64,000 bases of DNA from Simplicispira sp. 125 (lineage in GTDB: Bacteria > Pseudomonadota > Gammaproteobacteria > Burkholderiales > Burkholderiaceae_C), in NCBI RefSeq assembly GCF_003096555.1, contig NZ_QEKM01000001.1, positions 372,001-436,000 on the forward strand. The letters run 5' to 3'. The translations under genes were made by a program, and so were the position numbers. Below the pieces are notes generated by a model, which saw only the letters and a program-made list of their open reading frames with translations, ran no database searches and was not told where the DNA came from. Numbering within the stretch: position 1 is the stretch's first letter; each line of letters opens with the position of its first letter. This document shows, in pieces, positions 37,827 to 61,364 of the stretch.

Positions 37827-37951
37827 TAAACAGTGGTGACTGGCTTGAGCCAAATCGGCGGTACGTAGTAATCCTGACGGGCTCACCCTGATGTGCTGCG
37901 CGTGGGGTTTGGGCAAAATTGCTGCATTGCACCAATTTTGAATTGCCCGCT

Positions 37952-45749: not shown

Positions 45750-47146
45750 GCGCCGTGTTCGATCTGCTGCGCCTGTCCACCGTGTCGCTCGACGTGGCGG
45801 CAGCCCACCGGGGCACGGCCCAGGGCATTGCCCAGCTGCAGCAGCGGCGCCTGGCGCAGTTGCTCGACGTGGCACTGCGCGAATCGCGCCTGTACCAGGA
45901 ACTGCTGCCCCCGGGCTGCAGCGCCCGCACGCCGCTGCAGCAACTGCCCGTGGTCACGCGCGGCCAGCTCATGGAGCGCTTTGACGACTGGGTGACCGAT
46001 CCGCGCCTCAAGCTCGACGAACTGCGCGCCTTTACCGCCGACCCCGAACGCATTGCCGAACCCTGGCTGGGCCGCTACATGGTGTGGGAAAGCTCGGGCA
46101 CCACCGGCCAGCCCGGCATGTTTGTGCAAGACGCGCAGGCCATGGCCGTGTACGACGCGCTGGAAGCCCTGCGCCGCAGCGCACCGCGTCCGCTGGCGCA
46201 CTGGATGGACCCGTTGCAACTGGCCGAGCGCTATGCCTTTGTGGGCGCCACGGGCGGGCATTTCGCCAGCCTGGTCTCGCTGCGGCGCCTGTGCGGTATC
46301 AACCCCTGGCTGGCTGCCAGCACGCGCAGCTTTTCCATCCAGGCGCCCACGGCCGAACTGGTGCAGTCCCTCAACGACTTTGCACCCAGCGTGCTCATCA
46401 CCTACCCGACCGTGGCGGCCTTGCTGGCCGATGAAGCGTGCGCCGGTCGCCTGCGCATTGCCCCGCGCGAGGTCTGGACCGGTGGCGAAACCCTGGGACC
46501 CACCGTGCGCGCCCACATCGAGCGCAGCCTGGACTGTGCGCTGCGCAACAGCTATGGGGCCTCGGAGTTCCTGGCCATGGGCTGGGAGTGCCAGAACGGC
46601 CACATGCACCTCAATGCCGACTGGGTCATCCTGGAGCCCGTGGACGAACGCTACCGGCCGGTGCCACCGGGCGAGCCGCCTTACGCCGTGCTGCTGACCA
46701 ACCTGGCCAACACGGTGCAGCCCCTGATCCGCTACGAACTGGGCGACCATGTCACCGTGCACGCCGAACCGTGCACCTGCGGCTCGCCCTTGCCCATGAT
46801 CACGGTGCGCGGTCGCCAGGACGATCCGCTGCACATGGCGGGACGGCACGGCGGCACGGTCACGCTGCTGCCCCTCGCGCTGACGGCTGTGCTGGAAGAT
46901 GTTGCGGGGGTGTTCGACTTTCACCTGCGCCAGCTGGACGACCACAGCCTGGCGCTGCGCCTGCCCCTGCACGGCGAGGAAGGCCGCGCCGCCATGGCGC
47001 GCTGCCGTGCCGCCCTCAAGGCCTTTGCGCTCGCCCAAGGGCTGGCGCCCTTGCAGGTAAAGGCCGAACTGGGCCAGCCCGTGCCGCGTGGGCGCAGCGG
47101 CAAAGCCTGCCGCATCGTGGCCTGCACGGCCCCCGGCACCCCGTAA
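45746..47146 (+). CDS. PaaK-like AMP-forming acyl-CoA ligase/adenylate-forming enzyme
   Basis: This is a 466-residue adenylate-forming protein resembling phenylacetate-CoA ligase. The nucleotide motif reads WESSGTTGQPGMFVQD. REVWTGGETLGPTVRAHIE, NSYGASEFLAMGWEC and RYELGDHVTVHAEPCTCGSP follow in order. The Cys-rich CTCGSP loop is family-like. Substrate unknown; an aromatic or fatty acid is plausible. It is translationally coupled to the SagB-like gene. Its TAA stop shares its last base with the 101-bp repeat copy 3. Confidence 0.82.
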   Translation: MSAVFDLLRLSTVSLDVAAAHRGTAQGIAQLQQRRLAQLLDVALRESRLYQELLPPGCSARTPLQQLPVVTRGQLMERFDDWVTDPRLKLDELRAFTADPERIAEPWLGRYMVWESSGTTGQPGMFVQDAQAMAVYDALEALRRSAPRPLAHWMDPLQLAERYAFVGATGGHFASLVSLRRLCGINPWLAASTRSFSIQAPTAELVQSLNDFAPSVLITYPTVAALLADEACAGRLRIAPREVWTGGETLGPTVRAHIERSLDCALRNSYGASEFLAMGWECQNGHMHLNADWVILEPVDERYRPVPPGEPPYAVLLTNLANTVQPLIRYELGDHVTVHAEPCTCGSPLPMITVRGRQDDPLHMAGRHGGTVTLLPLALTAVLEDVAGVFDFHLRQLDDHSLALRLPLHGEEGRAAMARCRAALKAFALAQGLAPLQVKAELGQPVPRGRSGKACRIVACTAPGTP

Positions 47147-47255: not shown

Positions 47256-47963
47256 CTAAAAGGCCCGCGCCAATGCGCCCGTCAGGCTCTCCAGGGCGGC
47301 CGGGTTCAGCACCGTCCAGTGGCGGCGCTCGCCCTGCACCCAGCGGCGTGACTGCCATTGCGACAACAGACGGCTGAGGGTTTCCGCACGAATGCCCAGG
47401 TGGGCGGCCACCTGCCGCTGGGTGCCCGGCAGCTCCAGCCGGGTGCCCTGGTCGGCCGACAGGCGCAGCAGGCAGGCGGCCAACCTTTGCGGCGCACTGC
47501 TGACCGTAAGCCATTCCACCTCATTGATGTAGTGGTAGAGCCTGCGGCTCAGGTCTTGCAGCAGGCACAAACCCAGGGCAGAGTGGGCTTCGCAGGCACA
47601 CTGCAGGGCGCAGCGGCACAGGCGCCAGGCAGCGGTGGTGCCCACGCTGCGCGCCTGCATGGGGTAGCGCCCATGGGCCATGAACATGGCCACCTCGGCC
47701 ACGCACTGGCCCGGCCCAAAGCGGTGAAACACCCGCTCATCGCCATCGCAGCCAAAGCGCACCACCTCCACATGGCCCTGCACCACGAGAAACCAGTGGC
47801 GGGCAGCGTCGCCTTCGTGGAAAACCACTTCACCCGGGTGGAATGAATGCAAGTCGGCTTGCTGGCACATGGCCTGCAGCACAGCGGCTGGCAGGTCTTG
47901 GAACAAGGGGTGCGCCGCCAGGATGGATTGGGGCGTGGCGGGAGAAACGTTGATAAATGTCAT
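47256..47963 (-). CDS. CRP/FNR-family transcription regulator (DNR/FNR-like DNA specificity)
   Basis: This is a 235-residue regulator. The N-terminal cyclic-nucleotide-like beta-roll (HPGEVVFHEGDAARHWFLVVQG) leads into a C-terminal Crp-type helix-turn-helix. Its recognition helix AETLSRLLSQW keeps the Glu-x-x-Ser-Arg pattern that makes FNR/DNR bind TTGAT-N4-ATCAA. The N-terminal FNR four-Cys cluster is missing. However, residues 116-124 form a CxC-x3-CxC cluster (LCRCALQCAC) with another Cys at 133, unusual for DNR. It is divergent from the TonB-receptor gene at 48027 and probably controls it. NO, oxygen or heme sensing is inference. Confidence 0.85.
   Translation of the reverse strand: MTFINVSPATPQSILAAHPLFQDLPAAVLQAMCQQADLHSFHPGEVVFHEGDAARHWFLVVQGHVEVVRFGCDGDERVFHRFGPGQCVAEVAMFMAHGRYPMQARSVGTTAAWRLCRCALQCACEAHSALGLCLLQDLSRRLYHYINEVEWLTVSSAPQRLAACLLRLSADQGTRLELPGTQRQVAAHLGIRAETLSRLLSQWQSRRWVQGERRHWTVLNPAALESLTGALARAF
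47950..47963. promoter_or_regulatory. Candidate FNR/DNR-type site
   Basis: TTGAT-AAAT-GTCAT matches the FNR/DNR palindrome at 8 of 10 defined positions. It overlaps the first codons of the regulator gene and lies about 70 bp upstream of the chosen receptor start. That places a class II activated start near 47998. Confidence 0.35.
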
Positions 47964-47989
47964 TGCCGGATACCGGTGGTTTCAAGGAT

Positions 47990-48011
47990 GATATTGCAAA
48001 TGCGAATGAAT
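47990..48011. promoter_or_regulatory. Candidate Fur-box-like hexamer array
   Basis: GATATT-GCAAAT-GCGAAT-GAAT shows AAT-ending hexamers at 6-bp spacing, as in Fur boxes of beta/gamma-proteobacteria. It is imperfect. It overlaps the upstream in-frame ATGs at 48000 and 48006, which is one reason I start the receptor at 48027. Confidence 0.35.
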
Positions 48012-48026
48012 CCCAATAAGTTTTGT

Positions 48027-50153
48027 ATGAATCCTAAAACCCATCGTTTCCCTTTGCGAGCCACCGCCAGCGCTGTGATGGTCGCCGCCCTCGGCACGCC
48101 TGCTCTGGCGCAAGAGGGCATGGCGCTGCCATCCGTCACCGTGCAGTCCACCCGCGCCAGCGCCACGGTGCCTCTGCGCAGCACCGTGCAGGCCGAACGC
48201 GAAAAACTGGACAAAGTGCCCGGCGGCACCAACCTGGCCGAGCCGCAGAAAGAAGCGCGCCTGGCCACGCTGCGCGATGCGCTGGACTACCAGCCCGGCA
48301 TCGTGCTGCAGGACTTTTTTGGTGGCACCGACCAGCCGCGCCTGGGCATTCGTGGCTCGGGCATCCAGAGCAACCCGGTGAACCGGGGCGTGCTGCTGCT
48401 GCAGGACGGCTTGCCGCTCAACGAGGCCGATGGCTCCTTCATCATCGGCCTGATCGAACCGCGCAACGCGGCCCTGGTCAGCGCGCGGCGCGGCGCCAAC
48501 GCCACGTCGCCCAGCGCCACCATGCTGGGTGGCGAGCTGGACTTTGTGTCGATGACCGGTGCCGACGAGCGCGGCCGGGTGCGTGCTGAATACGGCAGCT
48601 TTGGCCGCCAGGGCTTACAGGCTGCGGTGGGAGGTGTGGGCGAGAGGGTCGATGGCCGGGTGTCCGTCAGCAGTGACCGCTACGACGGCTACCGCCACCA
48701 CTCGGCCTCGCGGCGCGACAGCGTGCAGGCCAATGTGGGTTTTCAGGGCGATGGCAGTTTCGAGAACCGCACCTACCTGGGCTGGACCGACCTGGCCTTC
48801 CAGATCCCCAACGTGGTGCCCAAGGACCGCATCGAATCGGACCCGCGCGGCGTGATGGGCGATGGCGCCACCCCGCAGGACCAGTTGCTCAACGTCTACA
48901 AGCGCGACCCGCGCCGCGCTGCCACGCAACTGCGCCTGGCCAACCGCTCGCGCTGGGGCAGCGACACCCTGCGCCAGGAAGTGGGCGTGTACTGGCAAGA
49001 CACGGACGACCTGTTCAACAACATGACCAGCCACACCGTCACCCACAGCCGCACCGCTGGCGCGCAGTGGCAGGCGACCGGGCGCCCCGCAGGCCGTGAT
49101 GGCGCCCTGGGCTGGCGCACGGCTTTGTCGTGGGCCGACAGTGCCATGCAGCGCGACCTGTACGCCACCAACCCGGCCAATGGCCAGCAAATGCAGCGCT
49201 TTGGCAGCTATGACCTGGGTGCCCAAAACCTGCAGGCCCTGGCGGCGACCGACTGGCGCCTGGCGCCGGGCTGGACGCTGCTGGGCAGCGTGCAATGGAG
49301 CCATCTCACGCGCGATGCGCAAAGCCGCAGCAGCGCCGCGCAGCTCGACCAGGACTGGAGCTTTGCCACGCCCAAGATTGGTGTGAACTGGGCTGCCACG
49401 CCCACCACGCGCCTGTGGGCCAACCTGAGCCGCAGCCACGAGGCGCCCACCTTCTGGGAAATCGTCAGCGCCACCGTGGCACCCAATAGCCCGGCCACGG
49501 CCCAGGCCGAACTGGTGCGCCTGAAGATGCAGCGCGCCACCACCTTCGAACTCGGCGGTGCCGGTCGCTGGGGCGAGGGCGCCCATGCCGTGCACTGGAC
49601 GGCCGCTGTGTACCGCAGCGTGCTGGCCGACGAGTTGATCTCGACGACCGACGCCAACGGCATCAAGGTGGGCACGTACAACTATGCGGGCGGCACGCGC
49701 CACCAGGGCGTGGAGCTGGGCCTCTCGGGCAGCCAGCGCGTGGGCACGGGCGCGCTCGACGTCCGTGCCAGCTGGACCTACAGCGACTTCCGCTTTCGCG
49801 GCGGTGAGTACGCGGGCAAGCAGATTGCCGGTGTGCCGCGCCAGCTCATCAATGCCGAAGTGCTCTACCGCATGGGCGCCTGGCGCTTCGGCCCCAATGT
49901 GCGCTGGATGCCCGTCAGTACGCCCACCGACCATGCCAACACGCCCGGTGCCGAGCAAGACGCTTACGCGCTGCTGGGCCTCAAGCTCGAATGGCGCGAT
50001 GGACCCTTGGCGCTGTATGTGCAGGCCGACAACGTGACCGACCGGCGCTATGCCAGCGCCTACGCCATCCGCAACCAGGCCACCGCAGCGCAGCCGGGCT
50101 ACTTGCAGGGCCTGGGCCGCAGCTTCACGGCAGGCCTGAGCTACCAGTTCTGA
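48027..50153 (+). CDS. TonB-dependent outer-membrane receptor 1
   Basis: This is a 708-residue receptor. A signal peptide (MNPKTHRFPLRATASAVMVA, cleavage after ALA) precedes a plug domain (LRDALDYQPGIVLQDFFGG, then RGSGIQSNPVNRGVLLLQDG). A 22-strand barrel ends in the terminal aromatic FTAGLSYQF. It imports a scarce ligand by TonB/PMF energy. The start is uncertain: in-frame ATGs at 48000 and 48006 are possible, but they sit in a candidate operator. It is the first gene of the plus-strand run with the CobN-like protein. The ligand is probably a tetrapyrrole or metal complex (inference from context). Confidence 0.9.
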   Translation: MNPKTHRFPLRATASAVMVAALGTPALAQEGMALPSVTVQSTRASATVPLRSTVQAEREKLDKVPGGTNLAEPQKEARLATLRDALDYQPGIVLQDFFGGTDQPRLGIRGSGIQSNPVNRGVLLLQDGLPLNEADGSFIIGLIEPRNAALVSARRGANATSPSATMLGGELDFVSMTGADERGRVRAEYGSFGRQGLQAAVGGVGERVDGRVSVSSDRYDGYRHHSASRRDSVQANVGFQGDGSFENRTYLGWTDLAFQIPNVVPKDRIESDPRGVMGDGATPQDQLLNVYKRDPRRAATQLRLANRSRWGSDTLRQEVGVYWQDTDDLFNNMTSHTVTHSRTAGAQWQATGRPAGRDGALGWRTALSWADSAMQRDLYATNPANGQQMQRFGSYDLGAQNLQALAATDWRLAPGWTLLGSVQWSHLTRDAQSRSSAAQLDQDWSFATPKIGVNWAATPTTRLWANLSRSHEAPTFWEIVSATVAPNSPATAQAELVRLKMQRATTFELGGAGRWGEGAHAVHWTAAVYRSVLADELISTTDANGIKVGTYNYAGGTRHQGVELGLSGSQRVGTGALDVRASWTYSDFRFRGGEYAGKQIAGVPRQLINAEVLYRMGAWRFGPNVRWMPVSTPTDHANTPGAEQDAYALLGLKLEWRDGPLALYVQADNVTDRRYASAYAIRNQATAAQPGYLQGLGRSFTAGLSYQF

Positions 50154-50162
50154 GGGCCCGCC

Positions 50163-51179
50163 ATGCTGCCATCCCTGCCTGTGCCGACCCTCTCACGCCG
50201 CCAGGTGCTGGCGGCGCTGGCCGCCTCCGGCCTGCCCGCTGTGGCGTGTTCTGCCCCGCGCCTGCCGCGCATCACCCTGTCGGGCCCTCCGGCGATTGTG
50301 TCGGCGCCCTTGATCCACATGGCCGAGACCCATGCGTTGGCGGGTGTGGCGGGCGAAACCGCTTTTGTGTCGTGGCGCGACCCCGACCAACTGCGCATGA
50401 TGGCCATGGGCGGCAAGGCCGACGTGCTGGCCATGCCCAGCAACGTGGCCGCCAACCTGTTCAACCGGGGCGCGGGCGTCACGCTGCTCAACATCTCGAC
50501 CTGGGGCGCGCTGTGGCTTGTGACGCGCGATGCCCACCGCAAGGCGCTGGCCGACTACCGGGGCGAGGAAATTGCCGTGCCCTTCCGGGGCGACATGCCC
50601 GACATCGTGCTGCAGCTGCTGGCCGCGAAGCAGGGGCTGGATCTGCACAAGGATTTTCGCGTGCGCTACGTGCCCACGCCCATGGAGGCCATGCAGTTGC
50701 TCATCACGCGCCGTGTCTCGCATGCGCTGCTGGCCGAGCCCGCCGTATCGCTGGCGCTGCGCAAAACCAAGTCCTTCCCCATCGGCCTGATCGCGCCCGA
50801 GTTGCACCGGGGTGCCGACCTGCAGCAGGAGTGGGGGCGTCTTTTTGAGCGCAAACCCCGCTTGCCGCAGGCGGGTATCGCTGCCGTGGGCACGGTGCGC
50901 CAGCAGCCCGAGGTTCTGGCTGCCGTGGCCAACGCCTATGCCCAGTCGCTCGCCTGGTGCCGCGCACACCCCCTGGAGTGCGGCGCCATGATGGCCCAAC
51001 ACATTGACCTGCTCATCCCCGAGGCCGTGGCCGACGCCATTGCCGTGAGCCAGCTCGATGCGGTGCCTGCCGCCGCAGCGCGCCCCGAGCTGGAGTTCTT
51101 CTTCGGCCAGTTGATGGTGCGCAACCCGGCGCTGGTGGGCGGCAAGCTGCCTGCCAGCGCGTTCTACGGGATGACCTAG
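50163..51179 (+). CDS. ABC substrate-binding protein, NitT/TauT type
   Basis: This is a 338-residue periplasmic binding protein. The N-terminus TLSRRQVLAALAASGLPAVAC has a Tat-like SRRQVL and a possible lipobox (AVAC). The NMT1-type fold is seen in GGKADVLAMPSNVAANLFNRG and PFRGDMPDIVLQLLAAK. It starts 9 bp after receptor 1 and belongs with the permease and ATPase genes at 58484 and 59275, which lack their own binding protein. Family members bind small organic anions or pyrimidine-like ligands. Whether it binds a tetrapyrrole or another factor is unknown. Confidence 0.85.
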   Translation: MLPSLPVPTLSRRQVLAALAASGLPAVACSAPRLPRITLSGPPAIVSAPLIHMAETHALAGVAGETAFVSWRDPDQLRMMAMGGKADVLAMPSNVAANLFNRGAGVTLLNISTWGALWLVTRDAHRKALADYRGEEIAVPFRGDMPDIVLQLLAAKQGLDLHKDFRVRYVPTPMEAMQLLITRRVSHALLAEPAVSLALRKTKSFPIGLIAPELHRGADLQQEWGRLFERKPRLPQAGIAAVGTVRQQPEVLAAVANAYAQSLAWCRAHPLECGAMMAQHIDLLIPEAVADAIAVSQLDAVPAAAARPELEFFFGQLMVRNPALVGGKLPASAFYGMT

Positions 51180-51286
51180 CTGCGGCGGGCACACCTTCGT
51201 ATTCCTTTTCGTTGTTTTTCATTGTTTGTCCCCGGCAGCCGCCGCCACCTGGGTCTTTGTTTTTTTGATTCCAGGAGTTTGCAGTC

Positions 51287-53323
51287 ATGACGTATTCCCC
51301 CGAGGCCCACGGCGCGCCCAGCGCAGCCCTGAACTTTTCGCACTCCTTGCGTCCCCGTCCCGCGGCATGGGCCGCAATGCTGTTGTTTGCGGGCGCGGGC
51401 GTTCAGGCCCAGGGCGTCAGCCCGACGGGTGCGGGTGCCCAGGAAGCACCATCCCAGCAGGTGGCGCAGGCCGCTGCGGCCCTGCCTGCGGTCACCGTCA
51501 CGGCCACGCTGACCGAGCAGGACGCGCGCACCGCGCCCGCCAGCGTCACCGTGATCGATCGCGAGGAGCTGGCTGCGCGCAATGCGTCCGATCTGCTCGA
51601 CGCCGTGCGCGGCGCCCCCGGCCTCACGCTCTCGCCGCGCCAGGTGGGCGGGCGCAAGACGCTGGCGTTGCGGGGGCTGGAAGGCAAGCACACGCTCACT
51701 CTCATCGACGGGCGGCGCATCAGCGCCACGGACGATGTGGTGGGCCATTCCGACTACCAATACGGCTGGCTGCCCATGTCGGCGGTCGAGCGCATCGAGA
51801 TCATCCGGGGGCCTATGTCGGCGCTGTATGGCTCCGAGGCGCTGGGCGGTGTCATCAACCTCATTACCCGCCAGCCCAAGGACCGCTGGATCGGCTCGGT
51901 GGGCGTCTCGGCCAGCGCCCCTACCCGCTCCAGCGAAGGCGAACCCACGGGCGCCACCTCGGTGTTTGCCGCAGGGCCCGTGGGCGAACGCCTGAGCCTG
52001 CGCGTGAACGCCGAGCTGGCGCACAGCGCCCCCGTGGCCGATCGACAGAGCCCGCTGCTGTCGGAAATCGAAGGCAGCCACGCCAAGAACGGTGGCCTGG
52101 CTGCCCGCTATGCGCTGACGCCGGAACAAACCCTGGAGGCGGGGTGGAGTGGCGGCAAAGAGCAGCGTGTGTACGACACCAGCTCTACCTCCAAGGGGGT
52201 GTACCGCAGCACCTACGACATCGATCGTTCGCAGGCCCATGTCGGCTGGGAGGGCCAGTTTGACAACTGGCGCGGCAAGCTGCGCGCCTACCGCAGCGAG
52301 ATCGACATTGCCAACCGCGCCAGCAACGGCGCTACGCCCACGCGCCCGCAGAACATGGTGGACGACGTGCTGGACGGCCATGCCAGCTTTGCCCTGGGCG
52401 CGCACCAGATCACCGTGGGCGGCGAATGGCGCCGCGAGACGCTGGAGAACGCCGGCCTGAAAAACGGTGTGGACGACGCGGCGCACAAGGCCCTGTTTGC
52501 GCAAGATGAAATCGCCCTGACCGACACGCTGATGCTCACCGCCGGTCTGCGTGCCGACCACCACGCACTGTTTGGCAGCGAAGTCAGCCCGCGCGCCTAC
52601 CTGGTGTGGGAGCCCACCCCGGCGCTGGTGGTCAAGGGCGGTTTTGGTCACGCCTTCAAGGCGCCCACGCTCAAGCAGATCTCGCCCAACTACGTGGGGG
52701 CCGAAGGACCACACACCTTTGCAGGCAACGGCGACATCCAGCCCGAGTCGTCCAACTCGTTTGAAGTGGGTGCCGACTGGCAGGTTGCGCCCGCCTGGTC
52801 GCTGCGCGCCACGGTGTTCAACACCGAGGTCAAAGACCTCATCACCTACCGCCTGCTGCGCCAGGAGGGCGTGCGGCGCTTCTACCAATACGACAACGTG
52901 GACGCCGCGCGCATCCAGGGGCTGGAGGCGGGCATGACCTGGGACATGACGCGCCAGCTTGCCTGGAGCAACGACCTGACGCTGCTGCACACGCGCGACA
53001 AAAGCACCGGCAAGAAGCTGGCCGACCGGCCATCGAGCAGCCTGACCTCGCGCCTGGAATGGAAAGGCGCCGAGGGCTGGAGCGCCCGCCTCACCGGCGA
53101 ATTCACCGGCAGCCAGACCGGCACCGACGGCGCGGCGCTGCCCTCGTACGCACTGTGGAGCGCCAGCGTGGGCAAGCAGTTTGCGCTGGACGCCCACCGC
53201 AAGCTGGTGCTGCGCGCCGGGCTGGAAAACATTGGCAACGTGAACCTGGCCGAGAAGTCGGAGAGCTTTGGCTATGCCGAGCGCGCGCGCCGTGTGTTCG
53301 TGACCGCAAGGGTTGATTTCTGA
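51287..53323 (+). CDS. TonB-dependent outer-membrane receptor 2 (BtuB/HmuR-like)
   Basis: This is a 678-residue receptor. A signal peptide ends near GAGVQAQG. The TonB box region is VTVTATLTEQDARTAPASVT. The plug has DLLDAVRGAPGLTLSPRQ, LRGLEGKHTLTLIDGRR, VERIEIIRGPMSALYGSEAL and GGVINLITRQP, and the barrel ends RVFVTARVDF. This layout is that of colicin I/BtuB/heme receptors such as HmuR. AGGAG lies upstream of the ATG at 51287. It precedes the CobN-like chelatase by 135 bp. The heme-receptor FRAP/NPNL motif is not obvious, although AFKAPTLKQISPNYVG occupies that position. Confidence 0.9.
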   Translation: MTYSPEAHGAPSAALNFSHSLRPRPAAWAAMLLFAGAGVQAQGVSPTGAGAQEAPSQQVAQAAAALPAVTVTATLTEQDARTAPASVTVIDREELAARNASDLLDAVRGAPGLTLSPRQVGGRKTLALRGLEGKHTLTLIDGRRISATDDVVGHSDYQYGWLPMSAVERIEIIRGPMSALYGSEALGGVINLITRQPKDRWIGSVGVSASAPTRSSEGEPTGATSVFAAGPVGERLSLRVNAELAHSAPVADRQSPLLSEIEGSHAKNGGLAARYALTPEQTLEAGWSGGKEQRVYDTSSTSKGVYRSTYDIDRSQAHVGWEGQFDNWRGKLRAYRSEIDIANRASNGATPTRPQNMVDDVLDGHASFALGAHQITVGGEWRRETLENAGLKNGVDDAAHKALFAQDEIALTDTLMLTAGLRADHHALFGSEVSPRAYLVWEPTPALVVKGGFGHAFKAPTLKQISPNYVGAEGPHTFAGNGDIQPESSNSFEVGADWQVAPAWSLRATVFNTEVKDLITYRLLRQEGVRRFYQYDNVDAARIQGLEAGMTWDMTRQLAWSNDLTLLHTRDKSTGKKLADRPSSSLTSRLEWKGAEGWSARLTGEFTGSQTGTDGAALPSYALWSASVGKQFALDAHRKLVLRAGLENIGNVNLAEKSESFGYAERARRVFVTARVDF

Positions 53324-53344
53324 CAACAAGGACTCTTTGAACCT

Positions 53345-53384
53345 CCCCTGGCCCCCTCTCTGGTGGGGAAGTGTGGGCCAGGGG
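53345..53384. promoter_or_regulatory. Perfect 10-bp inverted repeat upstream of the chelatase gene
   Basis: CCCCTGGCCC (53345-53354) and GGGCCAGGGG (53375-53384) form a GC-rich hairpin with a 20-nt loop. There is no T-run. It may be a partial terminator or an RNA-stability element separating receptor from chelatase expression. Confidence 0.5.
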
Positions 53385-53398
53385 CCGGTTGTATCAAT

Positions 53399-53461
53399 AT
53401 TCAAATACTACTATTTTGATAGCTGTTACCGCTTGATAGATAAGCGATAGAGGCCAATTTG
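53399..53461. repeat. ~60-bp interspersed repeat overlapping the chelatase start
   Basis: ACTACTATTTTGATAGCTGT, then TACCGCTTGATAGATAAGCG and ATAGAGGCCAATTTGA, is a clear family member. Its right end supplies AGAGG (53449-53453) and TTG (53459-53461), the best ribosome-binding site and start codon for the CobN-like gene. Confidence 0.75.
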
Positions 53462-56400
53462 ACTCATAAAACTATTGCAAACACCATCGCCTGCGTGCGG
53501 CGCTGGCTGGCCCTGTGCCTGCTGGTGCTGGCGCCCTTTGGCGCTGCGCAGGCGGCGCAGGTGTTGTTCATCGCCACGTCCAACGTGCCCGCAGGCAAGT
53601 TCCGCCAGTTGGCCGACATCGCACGGCCCCACGGCATCGAGCTGCAGGTGCGCTACCTGGAAAGGCTGCCCGCCGAGACCGACGAAGGCCTGTTCAAGGG
53701 CTTCGACGCGGTGTTTATCGACAGCTATTTGCAGGATGTGGTGCAAGACCGGTTGGCGCATGCGCTACCGGGCCTGCGTGCGCCCCACGCCTGGCTGTAC
53801 GACGCCAAACCCGCCTGGGGCGGCGGCTTGCCCGAGCCCGTGGCGCGGCGGCTCATCACCTACTACAGCAATGGCGGCAAGCAGAACTTCGAGGGCTTCT
53901 TCGCCACACTGGCCGCGCAGCTGCAGGGGCGCCAGGCCCAGGGCGTGCCCGAGCCCGTGGTGTTCCCCAAAACCGCCGTCTACCACCCGCGTGCGCCGGG
54001 CCTGGTCATGGCAGACCCTGTGGCGTGGCTGCGCTCGCAAGGCGTCGATCCAGCCGCCACCAACCGCCGCCCTGTGGTGGCGCTGGCGCTGCACCAGCAG
54101 TACATCGCCGCCATGCAGACCGCCTTCATCGACGACCTGATTGCGCGCATCGAAGCCGGCGGCGCCGTGGCGCTGCCGTTCTACAGCCCCATGCTGGAGG
54201 CGGGCGCGCTGGAGCAGATGCTCAAGCCGTCGGGCACGCGGCTGGCCGACGTGCTCATCAACACGCAAATCATGCTGAACGCCGAGGAGCGCCGCGCCGA
54301 GTTCGAGCGGCTGGGCATCCCCGTGTTGCAGGCCATGCCGTACCGGCGCGGCGACGAGGCCGCCTGGGCCGCCAACCCGCAGGGCGTGGCGCTGATGGAT
54401 GTGCCGTTTTACCTGGCGCAGGCCGAATACGCGGGCGTCACCGACATCCAGGTGGCGGCCGCCACCCGTGCTTCGGATGAGCAGATCGTGCCGATTGCCG
54501 CGCAGGCCGACGCCGTGGTGGGCAAGGCGCTCAACCTGGCTAGCTTGCAGCGCAAGCAGAACGCCGACAAGCGCCTGTCCATCTTCTTCTGGAACTACCC
54601 ACCGGGCGAGAAGAACCTGTCTGCCTCGTTTTTGAACGTGCCGCGCAGCCTGCACACCACGCTGGCCGCGCTGCAGGCAGCGGGCTACGACACCGAGTCG
54701 CCTGCCGAGCCCCTGTTGATCGGCAATTTGCAGCGCCTGCTGGCTCCGGCCTACCGCCAAGGCGAGTTGGAGCCCCTGCTGCGCGATGGCCTGGCCGCCA
54801 CCCTGCCCGTGGCGCAGTACCGCCAGTGGCTGGCCACGCTGCCTGCGGCCACGCAAGAAGCCCTGCGCGAGCGCTGGGGCGCGCCCGAAGCGTCGAGCAT
54901 GGTGCTGCGGCGCGGCGGCGAAGCCGTGTTCGTGGTGCCGCGCCTGATGCTGGGCAAGGTCGCCATCCTGCCGCAGCCGCCGCGCGGCGAGCAATGGGAC
55001 GACAAGGAAAAGGCGCTGTACCACTCGCCCAGCGCCCTGCCATCGCACTACTACCTGGCCGCCTACCTGTGGGCGCGCGAGCAGCACAAAAGCGACGCAT
55101 TGGTGCACTTTGGCACCCACGGCAGCCAGGAATGGCTGCCCGGCAAGGAGCGTGGCCTGTCGGTGTTCGACCCCGGCATGCTCGCCGTGGGCAACGTGCC
55201 GGTGGCCTACCCGTACATTGCCGACAACATCGGCGAGGCCCAGCAGGCCAAGCGCCGGGGCCGCGCGGTCATCGTCAGCCACCAGACGCCGCCGTTCAAA
55301 CCGGCAGGCCTGCACCAGGCGCTGACCCACATGCACGACCTGCTGCACGCCTGGCTGGCGCAGGACGACGGCGTGGTCAAGGAAAAAATCAAGGCCGACC
55401 TGCTGGCCGCCGTGCAAAAAGAGCACATCGACCGCGACATGGGCTGGACGCCCGAACGCACGCGCAGCGCGTTCCCGGCCTTTGTGGACCTGCTGCACAA
55501 CCACCTGCACGAACTGGCCGAAACCGCCCAGCCGCTGGGCCTGCACACCCTGGGCCGTGCGCCCGAGGAGCAGCACCGCCTGGCCACCGTGCTGCTGATG
55601 CTGGGGCGCCCGTTCTGGGAGGCTGCGGCACTGCACGCCGGAGCACCGGCTGCCGATGTGGACGAGGCGCTGATTGGCGACTACAGCCGCTTGGCGCAAA
55701 CGGCGCCCTACCAGTTGCTACAGCGCCATGTGATCGAGGGCCAGAGCTTTGAGACCCTGCCAGCGGCGTTGCAAACCGGCATCGCCAAGGCCCGCACCGC
55801 CTACGCCCACATTGGCGCCGACCAGGAGCTGCCTGCCTTGCTGCAGGTGCTGGCCGGGCGCCACCTGCCCACGTCGTATGGCGGCGACCCCATCAAGAAC
55901 CCCGACGCCTACCCCACAGGGCGCAACCTGTACGGTTTTGACCCCTCGCGCGTGCCCACGCCCCAGGCCTGGGCGGCCGGCAAGGACGCTGCCGAGCAAC
56001 TGATCGCTGAGCACCAACGCCTGACCGGCAAGGCGCCAACGAAGCTGGCCGTGTCGCTGTGGTCGGTGGAGACCATGCGCCACCAGGGTTTGCTCGAAGC
56101 ACAGGCGCTGTGGCTGCTGGGCGTGGAACCGGTGTGGGACGACGGCGGGCGCGTGACGGGCGTGAAGCTGGTGCCGCGCAACGTGCTCGGGCGCGAGCGG
56201 GTGGACGTGGTGCTGTCGGCCACCGGCCTGTACCGCGACCATTTCCCTAATGCCATGAAGCAGCTGGCCCGTGCCGTGCAACTGGCTGCGCAGGCCGAGG
56301 GGCCGGGCGAAGAGGCCAACCCCGTGGCGGCGCACACGCGCGGCATGGCCGCCAAGCTGCGCGCCCAGGGCATGGGCGAGCAGGCCGCGCTGGCGGCGGC

Positions 56401-57604
56401 GCAAACGCGCATCTTCTCGTCCGAATCGGGCAACTACGGCACGGGCCTGGACAACGCCACGCTGGCCACCGACAGCTGGCAGGGCAAGAAAGAGGGCGAC
56501 CGCAAGCTCGCGCAGCTGTACCTCTCGCGCATGCAGTACGCCTATGGACCGGACGAATCCACCTGGGGCAGCCTGCCCACCGCGGCCCAGGAGGGGAAAA
56601 GCGGTAAAGGCGGCCAAGGCGGTCAAGCGCTCAACCTGTATGCCGAGCACCTGCGCGGCACCGAGGGCGCGGTGCTCTCGCGCAGCTCCAATCTCTATGG
56701 CATGTTGACCACCGACGACCCGTTCCAGTACCTGGGCGGCATTGCGCTGGCCGTGCGGCACCTGGACGGCAAGGCGCCGCAGCTCTACATCAGCAACCTG
56801 CGCGGGGCAGGAAGTGGCAAGGTCGAAGGCGCGGCGCAGTTCCTGGCCAAAGAGCTGGCCACGCGCCAGTTCCACCCCGGCTACATCAAAGGTCTGATGG
56901 CCGAGGGCTACGCGGGCACGCTGCAGGTGCTGGATGCCACCAACAACTTCTGGGGCTGGACAGCGGTGGCGCGCGAGATCGTGCGCGACGACCAGTGGCA
57001 GGAGATGGCCGACGTGTACGTGCGCGACAAGCATCAACTGGGCCTCAGGCGCTGGTTCGAGGCGCACAACCCGCATGCGCTGGCGCAGACCATGGAGCGC
57101 ATGCTCGAAGCCGCCCGCCAGGGCTACTGGAAGGCCGACCCGAAAACCGTGGCCGAGCTGAAAGCGCGCTGGCGCGACCTGGCGGAGCGCTTTGATGTGC
57201 GCACCGATAACGCACGCTTTCAAGCGTATGTAGGCAAAGCGCCTGCGGCCCACAACCCGGCGGCGCCCGCTGCACCGGGGTTCGGCCTCGATGCCCCGTT
57301 GGCGCAGGCTGCACCGCCTGCCGTCGCACAGGCCGCTGCGCCAGCGCCGCCGCCCGCCGAGCCATCGCAGTCCACCACACCGCCGCAATCCGCCGAGCCC
57401 CCCGCGGCAGAGCCCCCGGTGGTCAGCGGCCTCTTGATGGCGCCCGTGCCGCAAGCCCAGCCGGTCAGCGTGGGCCCCACGCAGGCTGCGCTGCTGGCGC
57501 TGATGTTGGCGGGCATCACCGGCGCCGGTGCCATGCGGCAGGCGCGCCGCAGCAGCGTGGTGCGCCCCCACCGAATCCCTTCACTTTCTGGAGTTTTCCA
57601 ATGA
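53459..57604 (+). CDS. Exported, membrane-anchored CobN/HmuS-like chelatase
   Basis: This is a 1381-residue CobN/BchH-superfamily protein. The signature HFGTHGSQEWLPGKERGLS (His550, His554, Glu558) and downstream LVPRNVLGRERVDVVLS and FSSESGNYGTGLDN are present. Unlike the cytosolic cobaltochelatase, it has an N-terminal signal peptide (RRWLALCLLVLAPFGAAQA) and a Pro/Ala-rich tail (about residues 1265-1340). One C-terminal transmembrane helix (TQAALLALMLAGITGAG) and an Arg-rich end follow. The catalytic part should therefore face the periplasm. That matches HmuS, reported to strip iron from heme in Bacteroidetes. Start is TTG at 53459, or GTG at 53495. It overlaps the next gene (ATGA). Confidence 0.9.
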   Translation: MTHKTIANTIACVRRWLALCLLVLAPFGAAQAAQVLFIATSNVPAGKFRQLADIARPHGIELQVRYLERLPAETDEGLFKGFDAVFIDSYLQDVVQDRLAHALPGLRAPHAWLYDAKPAWGGGLPEPVARRLITYYSNGGKQNFEGFFATLAAQLQGRQAQGVPEPVVFPKTAVYHPRAPGLVMADPVAWLRSQGVDPAATNRRPVVALALHQQYIAAMQTAFIDDLIARIEAGGAVALPFYSPMLEAGALEQMLKPSGTRLADVLINTQIMLNAEERRAEFERLGIPVLQAMPYRRGDEAAWAANPQGVALMDVPFYLAQAEYAGVTDIQVAAATRASDEQIVPIAAQADAVVGKALNLASLQRKQNADKRLSIFFWNYPPGEKNLSASFLNVPRSLHTTLAALQAAGYDTESPAEPLLIGNLQRLLAPAYRQGELEPLLRDGLAATLPVAQYRQWLATLPAATQEALRERWGAPEASSMVLRRGGEAVFVVPRLMLGKVAILPQPPRGEQWDDKEKALYHSPSALPSHYYLAAYLWAREQHKSDALVHFGTHGSQEWLPGKERGLSVFDPGMLAVGNVPVAYPYIADNIGEAQQAKRRGRAVIVSHQTPPFKPAGLHQALTHMHDLLHAWLAQDDGVVKEKIKADLLAAVQKEHIDRDMGWTPERTRSAFPAFVDLLHNHLHELAETAQPLGLHTLGRAPEEQHRLATVLLMLGRPFWEAAALHAGAPAADVDEALIGDYSRLAQTAPYQLLQRHVIEGQSFETLPAALQTGIAKARTAYAHIGADQELPALLQVLAGRHLPTSYGGDPIKNPDAYPTGRNLYGFDPSRVPTPQAWAAGKDAAEQLIAEHQRLTGKAPTKLAVSLWSVETMRHQGLLEAQALWLLGVEPVWDDGGRVTGVKLVPRNVLGRERVDVVLSATGLYRDHFPNAMKQLARAVQLAAQAEGPGEEANPVAAHTRGMAAKLRAQGMGEQAALAAAQTRIFSSESGNYGTGLDNATLATDSWQGKKEGDRKLAQLYLSRMQYAYGPDESTWGSLPTAAQEGKSGKGGQGGQALNLYAEHLRGTEGAVLSRSSNLYGMLTTDDPFQYLGGIALAVRHLDGKAPQLYISNLRGAGSGKVEGAAQFLAKELATRQFHPGYIKGLMAEGYAGTLQVLDATNNFWGWTAVAREIVRDDQWQEMADVYVRDKHQLGLRRWFEAHNPHALAQTMERMLEAARQGYWKADPKTVAELKARWRDLAERFDVRTDNARFQAYVGKAPAAHNPAAPAAPGFGLDAPLAQAAPPAVAQAAAPAPPPAEPSQSTTPPQSAEPPAAEPPVVSGLLMAPVPQAQPVSVGPTQAALLALMLAGITGAGAMRQARRSSVVRPHRIPSLSGVFQ

Positions 57605-58137
57605 GCAATCCCATTGAATCGATGATGTATGGCGTCAGCCAGTTCTTCCTGTTCCCCGTGCTGCTGGCCATTGCCGCGCTGTTCGTGCATGCCTTCTACG
57701 CGGCAGGCGCCTTTGCCTGGCAGGCCTGGCAGCGCCGCAGCGGCAAAGCCGCAGGTTTTGAAATGCTGGCCGCACGCCGCGCCAACCCCGCCATCACCGT
57801 GCTCGACCTGGAAGTGCTGGCAGCAGAGCGGCTCGAATTTGCCCGCATCGCCACCCGCGTGGCGCCCATGCTGGGCCTGGTGGCCACCATGATCCCCATG
57901 GGCCCGGCGCTGATGGCACTGGCCGATGGCAATCTGGCCGATGTGTCGCGCAGCCTGATGGTGGCGTTCTCCGCCGTGATTTTGGCGCTGCTGGCCGCCG
58001 CCATCAGCTACAGCGTGGTCAACGTGCGCAAGCGCTGGTACGCCACCGACCTGGCCGCCATTGAGCAAGGCGTGGCTCCGCTGGAGTCGCCCGCACAAGA
58101 CATGCTGGGCCACCTGGTGAGTGAGGTGCCCGCATGA
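57601..58137 (+). CDS. MotA/TolQ/ExbB-like membrane protein (HmuT-like)
   Basis: This is a 178-residue inner-membrane protein with three predicted helices (about 12-36, 88-108 and 120-142). The segment VAPMLGLVATMIPMGPAL corresponds to the proton-channel signature of TolQ/ExbB (P..LGL.GT...G). It is smaller than ExbB, and its start overlaps the chelatase stop while its end overlaps the DUF2149 gene. It probably forms a channel with the next protein that energises the membrane-anchored chelatase or a receptor. The same pair follows HmuS in Bacteroidetes hmu loci. Confidence 0.85.
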   Translation: MSNPIESMMYGVSQFFLFPVLLAIAALFVHAFYAAGAFAWQAWQRRSGKAAGFEMLAARRANPAITVLDLEVLAAERLEFARIATRVAPMLGLVATMIPMGPALMALADGNLADVSRSLMVAFSAVILALLAAAISYSVVNVRKRWYATDLAAIEQGVAPLESPAQDMLGHLVSEVPA

Positions 58138-58484
58138 AGCTGCGTTTGATGGACGACATGGAGGCCGACGACCCCATCCAGTCGGTGGTGAACCTGATCG
58201 ACGTGTTCCTGGTCATCATCGCTGCGCTGCTGCTGGCGGTGGCCAACAACCCGGTGAACCCGTTCAGCACCGAATCGGTCACCGTCATCAAGAACCCCGG
58301 CAAGCCCAACATGGAAGTCGTGATCAAGGACGGCCAGAAGATCGAGCGCTACAAGGCCAGCGGCGAGATTGGCGAAGGCCAGGGCAACAAGGCGGGCGTG
58401 GCCTATCGCCTCAAAGATGGCTCCATGGTGTATGTGCCCGAAGCAGGTGCAGAGCAGTCTGCAGCGGCAGGGGTGGTGCAGTAA
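58134..58484 (+). CDS. DUF2149, ExbD-like protein (HmuU-like)
   Basis: This is a 116-residue protein with one N-terminal transmembrane helix and a small periplasmic domain. The helix reads VVNLIDVFLVIIAALLLAV. Asp23 in NLIDVFL is in the place of the essential proton-carrying Asp of ExbD/TolR (PLIDVMLVLL). The family DUF2149 is typically next to CobN-like and MotA/TolQ-like genes. Overlapping starts with both neighbours indicate tight co-translation (ATGA, TAATG). Confidence 0.85.
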   Translation: MKLRLMDDMEADDPIQSVVNLIDVFLVIIAALLLAVANNPVNPFSTESVTVIKNPGKPNMEVVIKDGQKIERYKASGEIGEGQGNKAGVAYRLKDGSMVYVPEAGAEQSAAAGVVQ

Positions 58485-59278
58485 TGCTGCGGCTGCTGGC
58501 GCGTGTTTTGCGGGGGCTGCCCGGCTACTTGTGGAGCGGCTGGGGTGCGTGCGCCAGCCTGTTTTTGCTGCTGGCCGCCTGGGAGGCGGTGGCTGCTTTC
58601 TACGACCCACTCATCCTGCCCGACCCGCTCACCGCCTTTGCCGCGCTGTGGGGCCTGGTAGAGCAGGGCAGTGCCTGGCCCGCGCTGGCCGCCACCGCAC
58701 GGCGTGCACTCATGGGGCTGGCGCTGGCCGTTGCGGTGGGCAGCCTGTTGGGGCTGGCCGCAGGCCTGTCGGTCACCGCGTCCGTCCTTTCGCGCCCGTT
58801 GGTCACGGTGCTGCTGGGTACGCCGCCCATCGCCTGGCTGGTGCTGGCCATGCTGTGGTTCGGCATGAGCGACGGCACGCCCGTGTTCACCGTGTTCATC
58901 GCCTGCTTTCCGGTGGTGTTTGCCAGTGCCCTGCAGGGCACGCGCACGCTGGATTTGCAGCTGCGCGACATGGCGCGTGCCTACCGCCTGCCGCGCTGGA
59001 TGGCGCTGCGCGAGGTGTATGGCCCGCATGTGCTGTCGTACCTGTTCCCGGCCTGGGTGACGGCGCTGGGCAGCGCCTGGAAAGTGACCGTCATGGCCGA
59101 ACTGCTGGCCAGCACCGACGGCGTGGGCGCCGCGTTGGCGGCCAGCCGCTCGCAACTGGACACCGCCACCACCCTGGGCTGGATCACCGCCGTGGTGGGC
59201 TGCCTGCTGGTGGTCGAGTATGGATTTTTGGAACCGCTCAAGCGCGAAGTCGAGCGCTGGCGGGAGGCACCGCGATGA
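58484..59278 (+). CDS. ABC transporter permease, NitT/TauT type
   Basis: This is a 264-residue inner-membrane permease with about six helices. The cytoplasmic EAA-type loop AYRLPRWMALREVYGPHVLSY couples to the ATPase. The sequence pattern (LPDPLTAFAALWGLV near the start, GTPPIAWLVLAMLWFG mid-chain) is that of SsuC/TauC-like BPD permeases. It uses the binding protein at 50163 and the ATPase at 59275. It follows the DUF2149 gene with overlapping codons. Confidence 0.9.
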   Translation: MLRLLARVLRGLPGYLWSGWGACASLFLLLAAWEAVAAFYDPLILPDPLTAFAALWGLVEQGSAWPALAATARRALMGLALAVAVGSLLGLAAGLSVTASVLSRPLVTVLLGTPPIAWLVLAMLWFGMSDGTPVFTVFIACFPVVFASALQGTRTLDLQLRDMARAYRLPRWMALREVYGPHVLSYLFPAWVTALGSAWKVTVMAELLASTDGVGAALAASRSQLDTATTLGWITAVVGCLLVVEYGFLEPLKREVERWREAPR

Positions 59279-60141
59279 ATCTTGTTTTGAAAGACGTGCG
59301 CCACAGCTACGCGCTGACCGAAGTGCTGGGCTGCGTGGGCCTGGCCTTGCCTGCGGGCGGCGTGCTGGCGCTGGTGGGGCCCTCGGGCTGCGGAAAGACC
59401 ACGCTGCTGCACCTGTGCGCGGGCCTGCTCGACCTGCAGGAGGGTCGGCTGGACAACTCCTTTGTGAACCCCGCGTTGATGTTCCAGCAGCCGCGCCTGC
59501 TGCCCTGGCAGACCACGATGGACAACATCGCCCTGGGCCTGCGCGCACGGGGCATGGCCCGTGCCGACGCCCGCGCCAAAGCCCACGCCATGGGCGCCGT
59601 GCTGGGGCTGGACGCCGAGGCGCTGGCCGCCTACCCGCACCAGCTTTCGGGCGGCATGCAAAGCCGCGCCGCGTTGGCGCGCGCCCTGGTGCTCGAACCC
59701 GATCTACTGCTGATGGACGAGCCCTTCGCCGCGCTGGACATCGGCCTCAAGGCGCAGCTGCACCGCCTGCTGCTGCGCCACCAGGCCGAGATGGGCACGG
59801 CGGTGCTGATGATCACGCACGACCTGATGGAGGCCGTCCGCCTGGCCGACACCGTGCTCGTCATGGCCGCAGGGCCGGGCCGCATCGTGCACGGGCACAC
59901 GCCTGCCGCGCCCGCGCTGGCGCGCAGCGATGCCATGGTCTACCACGACACCGCCGAGCTGCTGCGCGTGCCCGCCGTGCGTGCGGCCTTCGGGCTCGAT
60001 GCGCTGCTGGACGAAAAAGCCTGTGGCGCCGATGAATTCGCCGAAACCCTGCCACCCCCCGATGCGCGCGTGCTGCCCCTGCCACTGGCGCCGCAGGCGG
60101 GCGACGCCACCCCCGCCGCGCGGAGGATGCGATGCGGATGA
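59275..60141 (+). CDS. ABC transporter ATP-binding protein, NitT/TauT type
   Basis: This is a 288-residue ATPase. Walker A is GPSGCGKT (residues 35-42), the Q-loop sits in MFQQPRLLPWQT, the signature is LSGGM, Walker B is LLLMDEPFAALD, and the H-loop is MITHDLMEA. A C-terminal extension of about 60 residues rich in Ala/Pro is present beyond the usual domain. It overlaps the permease gene by four bases, and the nnrS gene overlaps its 3' end. Confidence 0.92.
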   Translation: MNLVLKDVRHSYALTEVLGCVGLALPAGGVLALVGPSGCGKTTLLHLCAGLLDLQEGRLDNSFVNPALMFQQPRLLPWQTTMDNIALGLRARGMARADARAKAHAMGAVLGLDAEALAAYPHQLSGGMQSRAALARALVLEPDLLLMDEPFAALDIGLKAQLHRLLLRHQAEMGTAVLMITHDLMEAVRLADTVLVMAAGPGRIVHGHTPAAPALARSDAMVYHDTAELLRVPAVRAAFGLDALLDEKACGADEFAETLPPPDARVLPLPLAPQAGDATPAARRMRCG

Positions 60142-61364
60142 CCGCCCCCGTGATGACCCCGCCCGGCCTGCTGTCGCCCCAGCACCCGGTGTGGATGTGC
60201 GCCATGCGCCCCTTCTTTCTGCTCACCATGGGCTCGGCGGTGCTGCTCATCGGCCTGTGGAGCGCCGTGCTGGCGCTGGGCCTGCCGCCGCCGCCCGTGG
60301 CAGGCGGCGCGCTGGTGTGGCACGCGCATGAGCTGCTGCTGGGCTTTGGCCTGGCGGCGGTGGCGGGTTTTGTGCTGACTGCGGTGCCCGAATTCACGGC
60401 CACCGCCAGTGCCAACCCGCGCACGGCGCGCCAACTGGTGGCGCTGTGGCTGCTGGGCCGCGCGGGCTTTTGGCTCTCAGGCGTGGCCGGGTGGCCCGCA
60501 CTGGCCGTGGCGGGTGCGGCGCAGCTCGCCTTGCTGGGTACCCTCATCGCCCTGCTGTGGCCCGCCTTGCGCACGCCCGCAGGCCAGCGCCACCACGCCT
60601 TTGGCTGGGCGCTGGCAGGCATGGTATTGCTGGTGGCGGGTTTTTACCTTGATGCGCTGCGCGGCGCCTACCCCATGCGCTGGCTGCACGCCTTTCTGGG
60701 CCTGCTGATGGTGCTCATCGTCATCGCCATGAGCCGCATCTCCATGCGCATCGTCAACCGCGCCATCGACCAGGCAGGCACCGGCGCCGAGCCGTATCTG
60801 GCCCGCCCACCCCGGCGCAACCTGGCCGTGCTGTGCATTGCCTTGTTCACCCTGGCCGAGTTTGTGCACGAAGGCAGCGCTACCTCCGGCTGGCTGGCCT
60901 GCGCCAGTGCCGCCGCCCTGTTCAACCTGCTGGGCGACTGGCACGTGGGCCGCCCGCTGCTGCGGCGCTGGCCGCTCATGCTCTACACCGTGTACCTGTG
61001 CATGGCGCTGGGCTACGGGCTCATGGGCTGGGCCCTGCTGGCCGGTGGCCCAGGCGTGACGGCGGGGCGCCACCTGCTCACTGTGGGCGCCATGGGCCTG
61101 GCCATCTACGCTGTCATCTGCATCGCCGGGCGCGCGCACTGCGGCCTGGCGATGGATGAGCGTGCGTGGGGTGTGTGGGGCGCAGGCCTGATCGCCTTGG
61201 CCGCGCTGCTGCGCGCAGGGGCGGCGTGGGCGGGGGACTCTTCAGTGGCCTGGATGGCGCTGGCCGGGCTGTGCTGGGTGGCCGCGTTTGGATTGCTGTG
61301 CGTGTTCATCGCGCCGGTGCTGTGGCGGGTGCGGGCGGATGGATTGTGGGGGTGCGAGGGGTAG
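60132..61364 (+). CDS. nnrS: NnrS family heme/copper membrane protein
   Basis: This is a 410-residue polytopic membrane protein with about twelve helices. Recognisable parts are HPVWMCAMRPFFLLTMGSAV, LVWHAHELLLGFGLAAVAGF with its His pair, the ISMRIVNRAID loop, and LLTVGAMGLAIYAVI. NnrS is a heme- and copper-containing protein that eases nitric-oxide stress and is usually under DNR/NNR control in denitrifiers. Finding it at the end of this operon, with a CRP/FNR-type regulator at the head, links the cluster to NO or low-oxygen growth. Confidence 0.9.
   Translation: MRMTAPVMTPPGLLSPQHPVWMCAMRPFFLLTMGSAVLLIGLWSAVLALGLPPPPVAGGALVWHAHELLLGFGLAAVAGFVLTAVPEFTATASANPRTARQLVALWLLGRAGFWLSGVAGWPALAVAGAAQLALLGTLIALLWPALRTPAGQRHHAFGWALAGMVLLVAGFYLDALRGAYPMRWLHAFLGLLMVLIVIAMSRISMRIVNRAIDQAGTGAEPYLARPPRRNLAVLCIALFTLAEFVHEGSATSGWLACASAAALFNLLGDWHVGRPLLRRWPLMLYTVYLCMALGYGLMGWALLAGGPGVTAGRHLLTVGAMGLAIYAVICIAGRAHCGLAMDERAWGVWGAGLIALAALLRAGAAWAGDSSVAWMALAGLCWVAAFGLLCVFIAPVLWRVRADGLWGCEG

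Follow-up and report, generated by a model that had tools for sequence, protein, structure and literature searches.

An operon in a 64,000-nucleotide stretch of the Simplicispira sp. 125 genome (the window; it occupies 372-436 kb of the only contig, which is 3.97 Mb long, was scored 100% complete and has one PF02514 gene) appears to be an iron-repressed uptake system that draws its iron most likely from heme or a related iron tetrapyrrole, a reading to which we give a probability of roughly 0.55. The operon encodes two TonB-dependent receptors, a binding protein, an exported CobN-like chelatase, an ExbB-like and a DUF2149 protein, an ATP-binding cassette (ABC) importer and NnrS. This gene set, its order on the plus strand and the divergent Crp/Fnr-family regulator had been described in an earlier note on this DNA and were confirmed with Pfam; "fused" in the title of that note refers to a shared operon rather than to a fused protein.

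With plentiful iron, Fur would block the promoter between the regulator gene and the gene of receptor 1. When iron is scarce, the two TonB receptors would deliver an iron-carrying ligand to the periplasm, heme or a related tetrapyrrole of iron being the likeliest. There, the exported CobN-like protein would strip the metal without CobS or CobT and the ExbB/DUF2149 pair would supply the proton-motive force. The binding protein and the ABC transporter might take in a second ligand or some small product; NnrS could curb nitrosylation of iron or heme during denitrification. The gene order, the Fur-like operator, the membership of an iron-type clade, the loss of two HmuS features and the absence of the corrin markers sought were computed; the heme substrate, the dechelation, the energy coupling, the ABC cargo and the role of NnrS are what we infer.

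The operon is made of two interlocked modules. Module A (TonB receptor, CobN, ExbB-like and DUF2149 proteins) is common in betaproteobacteria and forms the core of the related loci, and module B (receptor, binding protein, permease, ATPase and NnrS) is also found without A.

Fur-like operators and FNR-type boxes

The consensus scan covered 83 upstream regions, namely those of 80 related loci (L060-L139, the best 80 of the 222 relatives obtained by a CobN-alignment scan of genome contigs) and three from the window. The named relatives closest to the CobN-like protein were Simplicispira, Giesbergeria, Acidovorax and Comamonas granuli. Fur-type palindromes (at least 12/14 for TGAGAATNATTCTCA) were present in 18 of the 83 regions and in none of the shuffles, and a position weight matrix (PWM) was derived from 18 such sites. 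When all 64 kb of the window were scanned, the top PWM site lay in the spacer between the regulator and receptor 1, and the runner-up scored 9.4 bits, a gap of 13.5 bits. The same spacer held the locus-wide rank 1 Fur-like site in 9/9 sister loci (15.9-27.0 bits). Upstream of module A, Fur-like sites of at least 20 bits occurred in 22 of 58 non-training regions compared with 13 of 1066 segments drawn at random from these loci. In 15 of the 19 module-B loci fetched, a site of at least 17 bits lay close to, or 5' of, the gene for the binding protein or that for its receptor; L177-L180 had none there. Zur scores in the 83 regions were at shuffle level with no site of at least 12/14, the three regions of the window included, and NikR scores were likewise the same as in shuffles. 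As Fur-like sites are in place and neither Zur nor NikR sites show enrichment, iron is likely the metal of this system.

FNR-type sites were somewhat enriched over shuffles in the 83 regions. Ten of the 156 Fur-like sites of at least 18 bits in all loci (repeats included) had an FNR-type box of at least 9/10 within 45 bases, and in eight of these pairs the box stood 11-13 bases upstream of the Fur-like box (two of the eight read as +19 on the opposite strand, which is the same place). These double sites precede module B in L119, L127, L171, L172, L173 and L176 and module A in L087 and L106; the one in L127 is common to a divergent imelysin gene. No such spacing was seen at 200 random positions per locus. 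The genome encodes cd1-type proteins, and therefore the host probably denitrifies.

The chelatase and its relation to HmuS

Among solved relatives, the CobN-like protein matched HmuS (9d26) best by sequence (363 bits), followed by CobN (333 bits) and ChlH (329 bits). The HFG(T/A)HG loop of HmuS is present as HFGTHG at residues 550-555, where His554 is equivalent to His538, one of three HmuS residues (with His1209 and Glu1212) whose roles are given in the available text of PMC12583661; HxGTHGxxEW is kept in 80/80 related loci. Four kinds of protein of the hmu operon (receptor, CobN-like, MotA/TolQ and DUF2149) were recovered with Pfam. According to the accessible part of PMC10434189, hmuYRSTUV of P. 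gingivalis ends with a MotA/TolQ/ExbB gene followed by one for a DUF2149 product (HmuV), and the part of PMC13227078 at hand describes HmuU as ExbB-like and HmuV as similar to no known family. The suggestion that an ABC importer replaces HmuV was therefore wrong: HmuV is a DUF2149 protein, the ExbB-like and DUF2149 kinds are both present here, and the ABC module is an addition. Kinship with the hmu operon as a cell-envelope metal-acquisition system was upheld by these parts, by the iron-linked control and by the HxGTHG loop. The two operons differ in that neither HmuY nor HmuT is among the ten genes of the window (a genome-wide search was not made) and in that the window adds the ABC importer, NnrS, a second receptor and the Crp/Fnr regulator.

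In 17 of the 80 loci a co-directional ChaN-family gene (PF04187) lay no more than 600 bp from CobN, ExbB or DUF2149, the family assignment being Pfam-checked on one member. We take ChaN to be a heme-binding family of haem uptake. Because this gene adjoins the module in 17/80 loci, heme is the likeliest iron source. One ChaN-family gene lies elsewhere in the Simplicispira genome; heme oxygenase of family PF01126 was not found there (other heme-degrading families were not searched). In Bacteroides, removal of iron from heme is described for BtuS1/BtuS2 and HmuS in the literature available in part; the B. fragilis BtuS proteins, likened here by that description only, belong to an anaerobe of another phylum.

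Several results weigh against heme, against iron control or against an HmuS-like function. Alignment to 9d26 showed that LSLDHxxEFMGG of HmuS is TTDDPFQYLGG in the chelatase, with Asp1087 for His1209 and Gln1090 for Glu1212; DDPFQYLGG occupies residues 1086-1094, DDPFQ[YF]LGG is found in 80/80 related loci, and the Asp/Gln pair is that of cobaltochelatase (DSDDYYQFEGG). The Met-rich insertion (long domain IV) is absent, with 68 residues and no Met between two matched stretches that in HmuS are separated by 228 residues (between 702 and 931). No invariant or near-invariant Met occurs in residues 1-358 of 16 members, although the N-terminal profile did not align to HmuS, whose heme site 1 comprises Met79 and His254. 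Fold comparison puts HmuS and CobN nearly level, and the NCBIfam CobN equivalog NF004644 gives the chelatase 1372 bits, above its cut-off of 1248; with the remaining CobN models listed it stays below the cut-offs. Receptor 2 resembles a siderophore receptor (CirA), and no ChaN gene is present in the operon of the window nor in 63 of the 80 loci. Five of the nine sister Fur-like sites reach merely 15.9-17.0 bits, and 36 of the 58 non-training regions have no Fur-like site of at least 20 bits directly 5' of the CobN-side receptor (eight of the 36 are sister operons, whose Fur-like site precedes receptor 1). Control by nitric oxide or low oxygen, as the earlier note had assumed, gains from the Fur and FNR double sites in eight relatives, but the operon of the window itself has no FNR-type box of at least 9/10.

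Strict HmuS identity was ruled out by the Asp/Gln pair and the absent Met-rich insertion. Since the His1209/Glu1212 pair is replaced and the insertion is missing, the chelatase may function in the manner of HmuS without being classed as HmuS. Of the proposal that the operon acquires heme or another tetrapyrrole, the iron component is supported by Fur-like sites and the envelope CobN-like system is present; heme is only likely, and two HmuS-defining features fail. The 2025 description of HmuS presented it as a heme dechelatase mainly of Bacteroidota. The relative in this operon comes from a betaproteobacterium, seems to be under iron control, has another active-site pair and is tied to an ABC importer and NnrS, which gives DUF2149 a setting and offers a possible reason for NnrS in operons with Fur-like sites.

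Module distribution, related clades and competing explanations

DUF2149 is present in 66 of the 80 loci; in 12 of the remaining 14 the contig stops within 1.7 kb of CobN, and L089 and L136 lack it despite enough contig around CobN. Module B occurs together with A in 12 loci when binding protein and permease are counted and in 10 when NnrS is counted too. The ten genes have identical order in four loci (L060, L061, L063 and L064), are joined by an inserted cupin or additional receptor gene in L062, L065 and L066 (receptor 2 of L066 being split into two frames) and are arranged in the same way in L108, whose contig stops after the permease. L061 belongs to Simplicispira psychrophila DSM 11588; among the loci with module A, L078 is from Azospira oryzae DSM 21223. 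Because the same ten genes recur across related loci, the arrangement is beyond chance. The regulator gene is kept in eight sister loci and also lies beside the binding-protein gene in L181 and L182. The interlocked operon was also found on a 242-kb plasmid of Diaphorobacter sp. HDW4A, typed as non-mobilizable (L190), with a cupin, a third receptor and one further gene as extras and with a DUF2149 gene that is present but unannotated; as the whole A+B operon lies on a plasmid, horizontal spread is hinted at. A search by titles and abstract openings, with subscription journals little covered, found no paper on this operon. The claim that no such combination had been described holds to that extent, but the combination is not unique, being present in 8/80 loci (L108 incomplete) and on one plasmid.

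In 399 genomes of the order, binding-protein relatives above 100 bits occurred in 21 (62 at E 0.001) and DUF2149 above its cut-off in 27; both together were found in six genomes versus an expectation of 1.4 (p 0.0015, without correction for kinship and with the 100-bit line set after the search). A NnrS match was nearby in 11 of 19 fetched binding-protein loci (module B alone). The fetched stretches of the 80 loci also contained a ribosomal protein S4 paralogue (15 loci, all among L070-L137), a DUF2325 protein (14), a ferritin-like protein (8) and an imelysin (5); under the same-strand, 600-bp rule used for ChaN, these numbered 4, 2, 3 and 0 loci, respectively.

When DUF2149-linked CobN proteins were aligned with control CobN proteins, three types could be read from the two motifs; several rows fit none. 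Type I, that of the window, has HxGTHG and DDPFQ. Type II (L038, L040, L042, L047, L048, L225 and L226) has DHxFE with an HmuS-like His, and type III (14 loci: L054-L057, L059 and L228-L236) has GRHSTYEF and NDxFDYLGG. In a tree made by a quick method, with long-branch warnings and without PA1923, type I formed one side of a branch (Shimodaira-Hasegawa-like approximate likelihood ratio test, SH-aLRT, 99) apart from Sinorhizobium CobN, type II fell in two places and type III grouped with Marinobacter CobN from a cobalamin operon. Zur-like sites lie approximately at the receptor start in L038 (13/14) and in L047 and L048 (11/14 each); L047 also has a weak Fur-like site (16.6 bits) and L042 has strong ones, and neither kind precedes the module in L040 (cut), L225 or L226. 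Cobalamin riboswitches were found in five of the seven type III loci scanned, which makes type III a possible uptake system for cobalt or corrins. In Runella slithyformis (L193, 3140-11174), genes for a receptor, a urease-accessory protein (as annotated), ExbB, DUF2149 and CobN lie within a NiFe-hydrogenase maturation operon, between hypBF and hypCDE, pointing to nickel. In L038 a TonB receptor and CobN apparently share one open frame of 2086 aa behind the Zur-like site, a possible receptor-chelatase fusion.

The metals given for these clades are hints read from regulators and neighbours. With Zur-like sites, cobalamin riboswitches and a hydrogenase operon in other clades, the envelope CobN platform looks metal-diverse. 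Envelope CobN with ExbB-like and DUF2149 proteins could tentatively be a general proton-driven stripper of metals from periplasmic tetrapyrroles or comparable chelates, with clades tuned to iron (type I, Fur-like sites), zinc (part of type II, Zur-like sites), cobalt or B12 (type III, riboswitches) and nickel (Runella, hyp operon). The window would then hold an iron branch in which a cobaltochelatase-type Asp/Gln active site runs backwards and which has acquired an iron- and FNR-linked importer with NnrS, taking iron from heme or nitrosyl-heme during denitrification. Comparing the clades through their own regulators makes it a testable question what sets the metal and the direction of a CobN-family chelatase.

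Among the alternatives to heme iron, the import of a non-heme chelate (a siderophore or other small ligand) through the CirA-type receptor, with the CobN-like protein freeing the iron or acting as a periplasmic metal carrier, is a real though distinctly lesser possibility. The Fur-like operator, the CirA-like receptor 2, the Asp/Gln pair in place of the HmuS His/Glu and the distant likeness of the binding protein and receptor 1 to PqqT and PqqU, handlers of a small quinone, are all in its favour, whereas the ChaN neighbours are not; moreover, the CobN-family proteins whose function is known to us (HmuS, CobN and ChlH) act on tetrapyrroles, which weighs against it. Zinc uptake is very unlikely here: no Zur site of at least 12/14 was detected in the 83 regions, the window has a Fur-like one, and the Zur-linked rows belong to another clade of the tree, which did not include PA1923. 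It has been proposed for P. aeruginosa PA1922-PA1925, described as Zur-controlled and zinc-responsive in the available parts of PMC9431628, PMC10393844 and PMC4542158, and Zur-like sites precede the module in a related clade (L038, L047 and L048). Compared by its published description as far as accessible, that operon has the same four-gene module (CirA, CobN-like, ExbD-annotated and DUF2149), with no ABC, NnrS or second receptor gene described as part of it; by our comparison it is a closer organisational relative than hmu, one that the earlier note had overlooked.

That the protein is a true cobaltochelatase subunit, or serves cobalt or corrin uptake, is highly improbable despite the DDxxQ motif shared with CobN, the NF004644 score and the riboswitches of type III loci. 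Its N-terminus is hydrophobic and export-like, no riboswitch reached its Rfam cut-off within the window, CobT (PF06213) was absent in 36 of the 38 genomes searched, that of the window included (present in two), and CbiC (PF02570), one corrin-ring marker, was absent from the own genome and detected in 7 of 14 control genomes. Phylogeny, the check that the earlier note had named, placed the protein outside the true CobN rows and type I apart from type III. True cobaltochelatase identity was rejected on the separate clade and the missing CobT and CbiC, in agreement with the earlier view that the operon does not serve cobalamin synthesis. Nickel uptake, which the hyp-operon setting in Runella would suggest, is the most remote of these explanations, with NikR-like sites at shuffle level and the Runella protein on another branch. 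A chance merger of two unrelated operons, in which module B would be a nitric oxide- or copper-related importer functionally unlinked to A, is very unlikely as well. B does occur without A, and 68 of the 80 CobN loci, some on short contigs, lack its binding protein; against this, B adjoins A in several arrangements (the interlocked set, upstream of A in L069 and L127, downstream in L087 and L119), Fur-like sites occur on both modules, and binding protein and DUF2149 co-occur above expectation. The preferred reading thus remains iron uptake, most likely from heme.

Gene inventory, start sites and further features

Table 1. Predicted features of the operon (positions in the window).
Feature	Positions	Strand	Basis
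Divergent Crp/Fnr-family regulator	47256..47963	-	PF00027 cNMP_binding and PF13545 HTH_Crp_2
Fur-like operator, predicted	47998..48018		PWM built from other loci, 22.9 bits
TonB-dependent receptor 1	48027..50153	+	PF00593/PF07715; open frame from 47847, predicted start
Periplasmic binding protein, NitT/TauT (NMT1-like) type	50163..51179	+	3hn0, E 1.4e-9; jgi name on relatives
Conserved leader of receptor 2	51222..51286	+	GGCAGCYGCCGCCACCTGGGT then Shine-Dalgarno
TonB-dependent receptor 2, CirA-type	51287..53323	+	PRK10064 CirA 308 bits, below cut-off 745
Exported CobN-like chelatase, 1381 aa	53459..57604	+	PF02514 CobN-Mg_chel 1000 bits; hydrophobic N-terminus
MotA/TolQ/ExbB-like proton channel subunit	57601..58137	+	PF01618 MotA_ExbB 27 bits; three hydrophobic segments
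DUF2149, ExbD-like, HmuV of hmu operon	58134..58484	+	PF09919 105 bits
ABC permease	58484..59278	+	PF00528 BPD_transp_1; SsuC/TauC-like, below cut-offs
ABC ATPase	59275..60141	+	PF00005 ABC_tran; TauB-like, below cut-off
NnrS membrane protein	60132..61364	+	PF05940 245 bits

The genes from cobN to NnrS overlap by a few bases (57601/57604, 58134/58137, 58484, 59275/59278 and 60132/60141) and can therefore be read as a single transcript. The regulator gene has its 3' end at position 47256, and its product shows E-xx-SR in the recognition helix. Receptor 1 probably starts at 48027, because the ATG at 48000 falls inside the predicted operator and L062 and L190 do not conserve it. Its closest solved structure is YncD/PqqU (70.6 bits), and receptor 2 matched the colicin I receptor 2hdf with E 6e-82. 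The binding protein has a sub-threshold Pfam match only (PF02621); the solved structure closest to it in sequence is 3hn0, a binding protein of an ABC transporter, and Foldseek matched its weak predicted model (predicted local distance difference test, pLDDT, 63) to 3hn0, PqqT and SsuA. A TonB receptor with a NitT/TauT-like binding protein is distantly similar to pyrroloquinoline quinone import by PqqU/PqqT, from which the window differs by its Fur-like operator and NnrS. Receptor 1 was excluded as PqqU by its 92.6 bits against the equivalog cut-off of 1200 (NF041535).

In the leader of receptor 2, the stretch CCTGGGTC is able to pair with the Shine-Dalgarno region GACTCAGGAG. This leader could be aligned in eight operons, occurs once per genome in 2 of 150 family genomes (that of the window among them), gave no convincing Rfam match and was not detected in L062 and L190, whose receptor 2 is preceded by a cupin gene; a role as translational switch or as small upstream open reading frame is possible. 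Between 53320 and 53450, 5' of cobN, there are an inverted repeat CCCCTGGCCC...GGGCCAGGGG and a palindromic repeat of the AGCGCTTAT/ATAAGCGCT type, with similar sequence across the 10 operons compared. Elsewhere in the window, a second binding-protein-like gene (37919-39001), NitT/TauT-like by eye, has a twin-arginine-like signal, and an AMP-binding (phenylacetate-CoA ligase-like) gene at 45620-47146 lies behind a nitroreductase-like gene directly upstream of the operon, also by eye.

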